Position numbers and translations under genes: made by a program
In this document: piece after piece, positions 26,942 through 31,036 of the stretch
Position numbering within the stretch: position 1 is the stretch's first letter
Layout: the number at the start of each line of letters is the position of its first letter
Notes under the pieces: generated by a model
Told to the model about the DNA's origin: nothing
What the model saw: the letters and a program-made list of their open reading frames with translations, nothing else
Database searches by the model: none
Source: Thermacetogenium phaeum DSM 12270
GTDB taxonomy: Bacteria; Bacillota; DSM-12270; Thermacetogeniales; Thermacetogeniaceae
Reading direction: 5' to 3'
Assembly (NCBI RefSeq): GCF_000305935.1
Contig: NC_018870.1
Span: 1-55,941, forward strand
Length of the DNA: 55,941 nucleotides

Positions 26942-27718
26942 GTGACGAGAGGAATGCAAAAGCTGGTTGCCGGAGCCCGGGAGCTGGGATTAGAGATCGA
27001 AGGATGGATGCAAGAAAGATTTCAGATCTACGCAGAATTAATAAGATCGTGGAACAGGAGGATCAATCTGGTGCGCCTCCAGAACGAAGAGAACCTCTTC
27101 TCCAGCCACTTCCTGGACTCCCTCTGGTGCAGCCGGGGTTGCGAACTTGTAGCCGTAGGACGCCTTCTCGATATCGGCAGCGGTGCCGGTTTTCCTGCAG
27201 TGCCTTTGAAGATCTGTTTCCCCCACCTGCAGGTAGTTATGGTGGAGTCTCAGGCCAAGAGGTGCCGCTTTTTAGAGGAAGTCATCGACGCTCTGCGGTT
27301 AGAAGGGTGCCGTGTTATCTGGGAGAGGTCGGAGAATTTGGCCCGCGATCCCAATCACAGGGAGACGTATGACTGCGTTACTGCCAGAGCGCTGGCAGCA
27401 CTGCCGGTGGTGTTGGAGCTTGGCGTGCCATTTCTAAAGAGAGGAGGGCACTTGCTGGCGATGAAGGGACGTAGCATCCAGGAGGAATTGGGTCAGTCCG
27501 CCTTTGCGATGAGCGTTCTCGGCGTTCGATTAGAACGGATAGTTCCTTATGTATTTGAGGGTGAGGAAGGAAGGCATATCGTATCTTTTGTCAAAGAAGA
27601 GCGTACTCCAGAGGATTACCCGCGAAGAGCAGGAATACCTGAGAAGAGGCCGCTCTTGAGAAGAGGGATAGGAGGTGATGCTGTCGAAAAGAAGATGAAA
27701 TGTAATGCACGGACATAG
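26942..27718 (+). CDS. rsmG: 16S rRNA (guanine527-N7)-methyltransferase RsmG
   Basis: A SAM-dependent methyltransferase of 258 aa. SAM motif I is LLDIGSGAGFPAVPLKI, with the preceding FLDSLW and the later VTARALAALPVVLELG of the GidB family. The start is GTG 26942. It sits directly before noc, as in Bacillus, and its 3' end overlaps the longest noc frame by 14 bases. Confidence 0.95.
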   Translation: MTRGMQKLVAGARELGLEIEGWMQERFQIYAELIRSWNRRINLVRLQNEENLFSSHFLDSLWCSRGCELVAVGRLLDIGSGAGFPAVPLKICFPHLQVVMVESQAKRCRFLEEVIDALRLEGCRVIWERSENLARDPNHRETYDCVTARALAALPVVLELGVPFLKRGGHLLAMKGRSIQEELGQSAFAMSVLGVRLERIVPYVFEGEEGRHIVSFVKEERTPEDYPRRAGIPEKRPLLRRGIGGDAVEKKMKCNART

Positions 27719-28550
27719 GGGGATGGTGTTGGAAATGCTCTTCGGAGGGGGCCGCAAGGGTGATAGAGAGGTCGTAAAAATACCTCTACAAAGCATAAGG
27801 TGCGGCAGATTTCAGCCCCGTTTTAACATTGATGAGGAGTCATTAAAGGAGCTCGCAGAGTCGATCAAGAACGTCGGGGTGTTGCAGCCGATCGTCGTCA
27901 GGCCCTGTGATGGAGGCTATGAGCTGATAGCCGGAGAGAGAAGGGTGCGGGCCAGCATGATGGCGGGGCTACAGGAAGTTCCGGCTGTGATTAAAGAAGT
28001 GAGCGATGCCGAAGCCATGGAGATGGCACTGATGGAAAACGTACAGAGGAGGAATCTTCACTTTTTCGAGGAGGCAGAGGGATTTCGACGTCTGATCGAG
28101 CAGTTTAATCTCACCCAGGTTGAGGTCGCCGAAAGGATGGGATTGAGCCAGAGCGCAGTAGCCAATAAACTGAGGCTGTTGCGGCTTTCGCCTGAGGTGA
28201 GGGAGCAGGTTTATCGTTTGGGATTGTCAGAGAGGCATGCCAGGGCTCTTCTGGAACTGGAGGACAGCAGGGCTCAGCTCAAGGTGCTCGGTATGGCTGC
28301 TGTGCGGGATTACAGGGTCGGGGAGTGGGAAGAGCTGATCAGAAGGGAAAAACATAAAAATATTTCCCGGGAAATAAAAAAGGGTCGAAAGCAGAATGTC
28401 GTGCCGAAGATCCGCGACCTGAGGATCTTTATGAATTCCCTGGAGAGGGGTGTAAAGATGATGCGCAGCGCGGGGCTGAATGTGCGACTGTCGCACGAGG
28501 AGGATAACGGTGTTTTGCGAATAGTAATTGAGGTGGACACTGGTGTCTGA
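27705..28550 (+). CDS. noc: Nucleoid occlusion protein Noc (ParB family)
   Basis: Noc binds scattered NBS sites and membranes and keeps the division septum off the chromosome. It has the ParB N-terminal CTPase domain (IAGERRVRASMMAGLQEVPA and ALMENVQRRNLHF), an HTH (LTQVEVAERMGLSQSAVANK), and a C-terminal dimer domain. The N terminus EMLFGGGRKG resembles a Noc membrane-targeting stretch. At the four positions that separate Noc from ParB it has Q (LSQSA), K (ANKLR), a basic R (LLRLS) and R (SERHA), the Noc pattern. A perfect Noc site lies inside the gene. The start may be ATG 27705 or ATG 27723. Confidence 0.9.
   Translation: MHGHRGMVLEMLFGGGRKGDREVVKIPLQSIRCGRFQPRFNIDEESLKELAESIKNVGVLQPIVVRPCDGGYELIAGERRVRASMMAGLQEVPAVIKEVSDAEAMEMALMENVQRRNLHFFEEAEGFRRLIEQFNLTQVEVAERMGLSQSAVANKLRLLRLSPEVREQVYRLGLSERHARALLELEDSRAQLKVLGMAAVRDYRVGEWEELIRREKHKNISREIKKGRKQNVVPKIRDLRIFMNSLERGVKMMRSAGLNVRLSHEEDNGVLRIVIEVDTGV
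28361..28376. promoter_or_regulatory. Noc-binding site (NBS) inside noc
   Basis: TATTTCCCGGGAAATA is a perfect 16-base palindrome identical to the published Noc-binding consensus as I recall it. It lies in the second half of the noc coding sequence. It may be an ordinary genomic NBS or a site where Noc loads next to its own gene. Confidence 0.85.
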
Positions 28551-29121: not shown

Positions 29122-29362
29122 GTATTACATTGCCTGTCCAGGTGACTCATGGATGGGTTTGGTGGCGGAAAAAGAGGGTCAGCGGCCAAAAAAAGGCGTT
29201 ACGGGTGGGTTTGAGCTTGGTGTGGTAATTATTAGGGGAAGATGAATATTGATGGGTACAGGCGGAGTGTGAAAAAATTTGAACGGAAGTGGGCGGGAAT
29301 GCAGGAGGATTGCGCTTTGTTGTGGAATAAAAATAGCAATAAGAAAAAGAAGAGAAAAGGAC

Positions 29363-29378
29363 TGTTCCACGTGGAACA
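29363..29378. promoter_or_regulatory. parS centromere-like site
   Basis: TGTTCCACGTGGAACA is a perfect 16-base palindrome that matches the parS consensus with symmetric changes. It overlaps the proposed GTG start of soj (29371), so in that frame it would encode FHVEH. ParB/Spo0J should load here and spread. No second parS copy was noticed in the window. Confidence 0.9.
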
Positions 29379-30189
29379 TCTGCGGCCAACCGTTGAAAAT
29401 AAGGGCTTTCCAAGCGATCGCGGGCAGGCGAAAACCATCGCCATAGCCAACCAGAAGGGCGGTGTTGCTAAAACAACGACCGCCATTAATCTGAGCGCCT
29501 GCCTGGCGGCGACGGGGAGAAGGGTGCTCCTCGTCGACGCCGACCCACAGGGCAATGCCACCAGCGGTCTTGGCGTTGATCGGGATGGGTTGGATGTTTC
29601 CGTCTACGACTTGCTTCTGGGGGAGGCGCAGCCGGAGCGGGTGGTGGTCTCACTGCAGATCGAAAACCTCGATCTGCTTCCCGCTACGATCAATCTGGCC
29701 GGGGCGGAGGTCGAGCTGGTCGGCATGAAGGACAGGGAGTTCAGGCTGCGCTCCGCTCTGCAAAGCCTGCGCGGCCGGTACCACTACATTTTCATCGATT
29801 GCCCTCCTTCTCTCGGCCTGCTGACCATCAATGCCTTGACGGCTGCGGACAGGATCCTGATCCCCATTCAGTGCGAGTATTATGCCCTGGAGGGGGTGGG
29901 GCAGCTGCTGCAGACGGTGAATCTGGTTCGGCGGCGTCTCAACCCGCAGCTGGAGCTGGAGGGGGTGCTTCTGACTATGTTCGACGCCCGCACCAACCTG
30001 GCCATCCAGGTGGTGGACGAGGTAAAGAATTACTTCGGGGACAAGGTGTTCCGGACGGTCATTCCCAGGAATGTGCGGCTCAGCGAAGCGCCCAGCCACG
30101 GAAAGCCGGTGATCGCTTACGACCCCAGATCGCGCGGGGCAATCCTCTATCAAGAGCTGGCACAGGAAGTGATCGAGCATGAAGAGTAA
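29371..30189 (+). CDS. soj: Chromosome partitioning ATPase Soj/ParA
   Basis: ParA-type ATPase that acts with Spo0J and parS in origin segregation; in Bacillus it also regulates DnaA. The deviant Walker A is IANQKGGVAKTTTAINLS (the usual GVGK is GVAK here), with switch regions VDADPQGNATSGLG and FIDCPPSLGLLT. The frame is open to an ATG at 29242 with AGGGGA upstream, which would add about 43 unusual residues. GTG 29371 lies closer to the family start and overlaps parS. The 29122-29370 region otherwise shows nothing clear. Confidence 0.94.
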   Translation: MEHLRPTVENKGFPSDRGQAKTIAIANQKGGVAKTTTAINLSACLAATGRRVLLVDADPQGNATSGLGVDRDGLDVSVYDLLLGEAQPERVVVSLQIENLDLLPATINLAGAEVELVGMKDREFRLRSALQSLRGRYHYIFIDCPPSLGLLTINALTAADRILIPIQCEYYALEGVGQLLQTVNLVRRRLNPQLELEGVLLTMFDARTNLAIQVVDEVKNYFGDKVFRTVIPRNVRLSEAPSHGKPVIAYDPRSRGAILYQELAQEVIEHEE

Positions 30190-31036
30190 GGGTTTGGGGC
30201 GGGGGCTGAAGGCCCTGATTCCCACGACACCCGAAGGTGCCGCAGAGGACGCGGAAATAGTGGAACTCCCCTTGGAGAGGATTACGCCGAGCCGCTACCA
30301 GGCCCGGCAGGACTTCGACGAGGATTCCATCCGGGAGCTGGCCTCGTCTATTAAGGAACACGGAGTCATGCAGCCGGTCGTCGTCAGGCCGGTCGGGGAG
30401 GACCTGTATGAACTGGTCGTCGGGGAGCGGCGCTGGCGGGCCTGCAGACAGGCGGGGCTGGAGACGATCCCGGCGGTTATCCGCCGGGTGGATGACCGGA
30501 CCTCCGGTGAAATGATGCTGGTGGAGAACATCCAGCGGGAGGACCTCAATCCCGTGGAGGAAGCGCTGGCCTACAGGCGCCTGATCGAGGAGTTTCACCT
30601 CACGCAGGAGGAGGTCGCCTCCCGCGTCGGTAAGAGCAGGTCGTTTATCGCCAATTCCTTACGCCTTCTGCAGCTGCCGGAAGGCGTAAGGAGCCTCCTG
30701 GGGCAGGGGAAACTGAGCGTCGGCCACGGCAAGGTGTTGCTGGGCATCCCCGATCCTGCCGGGCAGGAGATGCTTGCCCGGGAGATCGTGGAAAAGGGGC
30801 TCACGGTAAGGGATGCGGAGAAGGCCGTCCAGCGCCTCTTGAAAGAGGGGGGTTCCCGACAGAAGGCAGGGGAGAAGAAGAAGGATGTGGAGCTGGCGGC
30901 AGTGGAGGACCGCCTGCGGGAGCGGTTGGGCACGAAGGTGCGGATCAGGCCGGGCAGGCGGGGTGGGAGGATCGAGATCGAATACTACGGTCGGGATGAT
31001 CTCGAGCGACTCCTGGAGTTTTTCTTCGGCTGTTGA
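30179..31036 (+). CDS. spo0J: Chromosome partitioning protein Spo0J/ParB
   Basis: ParB CTPase clamp that loads at parS. The 285 aa protein begins MKSKGLGRGLKALIP, the Soj-stimulating N-terminal peptide, followed by the CTP-binding GERRWRACRQAGLETIPAVI and MLVENIQREDLNPVEEA, the HTH (LTQEEVASRVGKSRSFIANS) and a C-terminal dimer domain. The specificity positions are R (KSRSF), S (ANSLR), Q (LLQLP) and G (SVGHG), the ParB rather than the Noc pattern. It overlaps soj by 11 bases. Confidence 0.96.
   Translation: MKSKGLGRGLKALIPTTPEGAAEDAEIVELPLERITPSRYQARQDFDEDSIRELASSIKEHGVMQPVVVRPVGEDLYELVVGERRWRACRQAGLETIPAVIRRVDDRTSGEMMLVENIQREDLNPVEEALAYRRLIEEFHLTQEEVASRVGKSRSFIANSLRLLQLPEGVRSLLGQGKLSVGHGKVLLGIPDPAGQEMLAREIVEKGLTVRDAEKAVQRLLKEGGSRQKAGEKKKDVELAAVEDRLRERLGTKVRIRPGRRGGRIEIEYYGRDDLERLLEFFFGC

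Follow-up and report, generated by a model that had tools for sequence, protein, structure and literature searches.

A conserved, predicted Noc-binding site inside the noc gene of Thermacetogenium phaeum

The window analysed here, i.e. the whole stretch of 55,941 nucleotides, comprises bases 1–55941 of the T. phaeum DSM 12270 genome (2,939,057 bp, one contig). GC skew, which like the genome-wide distribution of sites was examined on sampled 20-kb stretches, places the replication origin close to coordinate 0 and the terminus at around 1.3 Mb. On the + strand lie rsmG (26942–27718), noc (27705–28550), a gene for a CxxCxxCC-domain protein (PF03692; 28528–29121), soj, encoding the ParA ATPase (29242–30189 as the longest ORF), and parB/spo0J (30179–31036). 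The rsmG gene overlaps the annotated start of noc, whose translation may instead begin at an internal ATG (27723 or 27735), a few codons further in. In all the neighbourhoods inspected that extend far enough, noc adjoins rsmG, and the gene for the CxxCxxCC metal-binding-domain protein, located between noc and soj, is kept beside noc in several members of the T. phaeum family.

The noc product is a Noc-type member of the ParB family, with a ParB_N domain (residues 22–114; PF02195, E=9e-34) containing a CTP-binding motif of the GERRxR type (GERRVRA), followed by an HTH_ParB domain (residues 117–216). Its best NCBIfam match is TIGR04285 (nucleoid_noc; E=2e-84), with a score of 282.7 bits that is below the curated cut-off of 315 and above the 249 scored by the ParB of the window. 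The residues that set binding specificity in the HTH region are Q, K, K/R and R in Noc versus R, T, A and G in ParB (PMC7383237). The T. phaeum protein has the Noc-type residues (Q149, K155, R160 and R177), as have nearly all the Noc orthologues (QK(R/K)R), whereas the product of 30179–31036 is of the ParB type, with R at the Q position and G at the R position. The ParA-binding motif, [LFI]G[KR]G[LFI] (PMC12704722), was read from the sequence as LGRGL in this ParB and is absent from Noc. The Noc N-termini, inspected by eye only for an amphipathic membrane-targeting helix, are short and hydrophobic (MLEKLFK, MVLEMLF, VWKII).

Within noc, positions 28361–28376 (no strand assigned) form a perfect 16-bp palindrome, TATTTCCCGGGAAATA, a putative Noc-binding site (NBS). 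A sequence-only reading of the window had equated this palindrome with the NBS consensus and had considered a random 16-mer match very unlikely. Both points hold: the site is identical across all 16 bp to the published consensus used experimentally, TATTTCCC-GGGAAATA (PMC7383237), and even with up to 3 mismatches allowed it is the sole match in the window, where shuffling predicts 0.21 such matches. A chance match was ruled out, reversed and shuffled palindromes yielding almost no matches. The 14-bp core (28362–28375) lies in frame, ATT TCC CGG GAA AT(A) encoding I-S-R-E-I at codons 220–224, in the linker directly after the DNA-binding HTH domain. We found no paper describing an NBS inside noc, and a prior mention in the primary papers of 2002 and 2009 is possible.

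Genome-wide, the copy in noc is the only exact occurrence of the 14-bp core, ATTTCCCGGGAAAT (about 0.01 occurrences expected from base composition by our own estimate). With up to 2 mismatches the genome contains 32 matches including the noc site, versus 8 for the reversed pattern as a single control; in 480 kb of sampled sequence, such NBS-like sites were not clearly above random palindromes of equal composition, the fraction at least as high being 0.13. The 31 weaker matches may be extra sites. They are skewed to the terminus, with 14 of the 31 in the terminus quarter (about 1.05–1.67 Mb; p=0.005), the opposite of the Noc pattern in B. subtilis. No convincing genome-wide distribution of NBSs was found in T. 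phaeum, nor were there many origin-proximal sites with few near the terminus. The enrichment in the genome for which the sequence-only reading had proposed a search was thus not seen beyond the one exact site in noc. Although that reading had listed the lack of enrichment as refuting its proposal, we do not take it so, since the comparative data below identify a single site at the noc locus as the conserved state of the family. A parS site, TGTTCCACGTGGAACA, is present at 29363–29378 (no strand assigned), at a distance of 1.0 kb from the NBS; a search of the genome at up to 1 mismatch gave no other match. With one exact NBS and one parS-like match genome-wide, the chromosome has both sites next to each other in the noc-soj-parB region close to the origin.

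The family was sampled with 20 genomes including T. phaeum. A noc orthologue was found in 13 of them, the other twelve proteins sharing 53–64% identity with T. phaeum Noc. All 12 exact NBSs of the family lie inside noc, one per genome and at the same codon, and the thirteenth noc (G003) has an NBS with 1 mismatch at that codon; no exact NBS was found in the family genomes without a detected noc, several of which are incomplete. Third bases of 4-fold degenerate codons agree in only 31.6% (0.32) of the pairwise comparisons among the 13 genes, indicating that synonymous sites are saturated. The five codons of the NBS are nevertheless invariant, save for one R-to-Q change in G003, and among 114 alignment columns with a conserved amino acid only 7 use a single codon, 5 of which are those of the NBS. 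Retention at the same codon in relatives, proposed earlier as a check, is therefore observed against saturated synonymous sites, and the loss that would speak against function was not seen.

Many further Bacillota families have the same 14-mer within noc, either at reference codon 169 (ISRE[IM]..[TS]ERHAR) or in the linker at 217–220; Anaerospora hongkongensis, Lucifera butyrica and a Syntrophothermus genome are examples. Among 80 loci taken from named records, some of which may overlap other genomes sampled, 10 exact NBSs were found in 76 kb of noc versus 2 in 701 kb of flanking sequence (Fisher p=5e-9), and reversed and shuffled palindromes gave no exact match. No internal NBS was detected in the Bacilli noc genes sampled (those of the Bacillaceae genome Litchfieldia, a Thermoactinomycetaceae genome and tree neighbours) or in many of the Clostridia noc genes examined. 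On the Noc protein tree, counting strongly supported branches only, the linker position has undergone at least 3 changes and the codon-169 position at least 5. Near-exact sites outside the gene were also observed in lineages having none inside: just before or at the start of noc in family f53, at or just after the stop in family f67 and in L218, and 133 bp upstream in G225 (G225:C1:2302928).

Codon usage separates selection on the DNA from selection on the peptide. Among 207 distinct Noc proteins, all 47 ISRE peptides are coded ATT-TCC-CGG-GAA, one of 216 possible codings, the counts not being phylogenetically independent, while the most uniform tetrapeptide away from the NBS reaches 0.36. In the first Noc set the same coding was found in 40 of 40 cases, where the codon use of the individual genes predicts 0.28. 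The explanation that ISREI is conserved as a peptide, with the palindrome a by-product of codon choice, could draw on the location of ISRE at codon 169, directly before a conserved [TS]ERHARALL helix. We consider it extremely improbable: the uniform coding in both sets rules it out, the same peptide occurs at two positions unrelated to each other, of which one is a variable linker, and 34 of 44 exact sites also retain the T and A that flank the core in the 16-mer. Judged from these codons and the protein tree, the NBS in noc is maintained by selection at the DNA level and has been gained or lost several times, and this repeated gain or loss together with the codon invariance is not accounted for by common descent of a drifting sequence. 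As a control, ISRE codings elsewhere in the sampled T. phaeum genome were counted; two came up, both with the NBS coding and presumably the NBS itself on both strands, which makes this control uninformative.

Several lineages with an internal NBS have 8–24 further near-exact sites elsewhere, and complete relatives have up to 25 sites at no more than 1 mismatch, with an origin-proximal bias that is weak and found in some genomes only. Single-site use is therefore not general among genomes with an internal NBS; by these sequence counts it is specific to the T. phaeum family and a few others (e.g. G115).

A textbook nucleoid occlusion factor, Noc is generally held to work from dozens of dispersed sites. 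The Noc-NBS systems of B. subtilis and S. aureus resemble that of T. phaeum in binding consensus, Noc-type residues, the ParB/CTP fold and the location of the gene beside rsmG near soj-parB (PMC7383237, PMC8429893). They differ in that about 70 NBSs are present in B. subtilis (PMC4331003) and 41 in S. aureus (PMC5540599), enriched in both over the origin-proximal chromosome, whereas T. phaeum has a single exact NBS, inside noc, a gene that lacks an internal NBS in the Bacilli examined. The retention of the site at two places in distant relatives suggests that the noc gene itself, close to the origin, is where Noc loads onto the chromosome. Published biochemistry has Noc nucleating on an NBS and closing as a CTP clamp; once associated with the DNA nearby, it attaches to the membrane (PMC8429893). 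From this we infer that binding, clamp sliding and membrane attachment take place at the NBS described here. The NBS that selection keeps inside noc would be functional, and Noc dimers would nucleate there; these would close into CTP-dependent DNA clamps and slide several kilobases to either side, across soj-parB and the single parS, so that a single membrane-attachable Noc complex would form about 28 kb from the replication origin. An origin-marking Noc of this kind would probably be tethered to the membrane, and a Noc complex at the origin would presumably be of benefit. We thus favour, as the probable interpretation, that the NBS is a functional loading site of the Noc CTP clamp at its own locus, and that in the family with a single exact NBS Noc acts as a second ParB that marks or tethers the origin, not as an occluder working from many scattered sites.

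The main rival of this loading model, with which it is not mutually exclusive, is autoregulation, in which Noc bound to the intragenic NBS hinders transcription through noc, and perhaps soj-parB, as a negative feedback on its own level. Autoregulation would fit the way in which the site follows the noc gene itself, including the lineages that have it near the start or stop instead, and PMC11790492 states that ParB of plasmid P1 autoregulates and that some chromosomal ParBs exert weak repression on the genes around them. However, ParB complexes let RNA polymerase through, and transcription is hardly repressed by the sliding of ParB on its own (PMC11790492); sites 500–660 bp into a gene would also be unusual operators, and we regard autoregulation as unlikely. 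A further explanation, that noc with its internal NBS is a self-contained cassette able to work at any place to which it is transferred, like a plasmid partition system, accords with the co-occurrence of gene and site and with their repeated re-establishment at different codons on the Noc tree, but the constant position of noc beside rsmG in the neighbourhoods examined gives little sign of mobility and makes such a portable module quite improbable.

To return to loading at the own locus, the ancestral Noc may itself have been a single-site origin system of this kind, a second ParB, from which the scattered occlusion of B. subtilis was derived and of which the T. phaeum family retains the form; we put this forward tentatively, as a possibility with the odds against it. 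A family with one exact NBS inside noc, beside the only parS, represents a natural single-site system in which one can test by what route Noc acquired its function once it had been duplicated from ParB, and whether genome-wide occlusion was preceded by origin anchoring or by autoregulation. It is also a clean example of how the DNA of a protein-coding gene can be constrained by the predicted binding site of its own product, a site repeatedly established at different codons.

The nearest precedent is parS-359, which sits inside parB (spo0J) of B. subtilis and is a loading site of a ParB-family clamp located in the clamp's own gene near the origin (PMC4442127), as the NBS in noc would be; with this precedent, and with the NBS lying 1.0 kb from the only parS-like site, the analogy drawn earlier with parS sites close to parB is well founded. 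The two cases differ in protein and site, in that many families maintain the NBS in noc at either of two codons, and in that it is the only exact NBS of the T. phaeum genome. In plasmid P1 ParABS, a single centromere-like site lies beside the ParB gene. T. phaeum noc is similar to this system in having a single site associated with its own ParB-family gene, but here the coding sequence contains the site, and Noc has no ParA-binding motif. The parS of T. phaeum itself falls within the longest soj ORF, in its 5' part and in frame, where it encodes LFHVEH, which makes the true soj start uncertain; it may be another centromere site in a coding region, or soj may start further downstream. In one relative, an exact NBS was observed within a match to parB, not noc (G031:C56:8954-8967).
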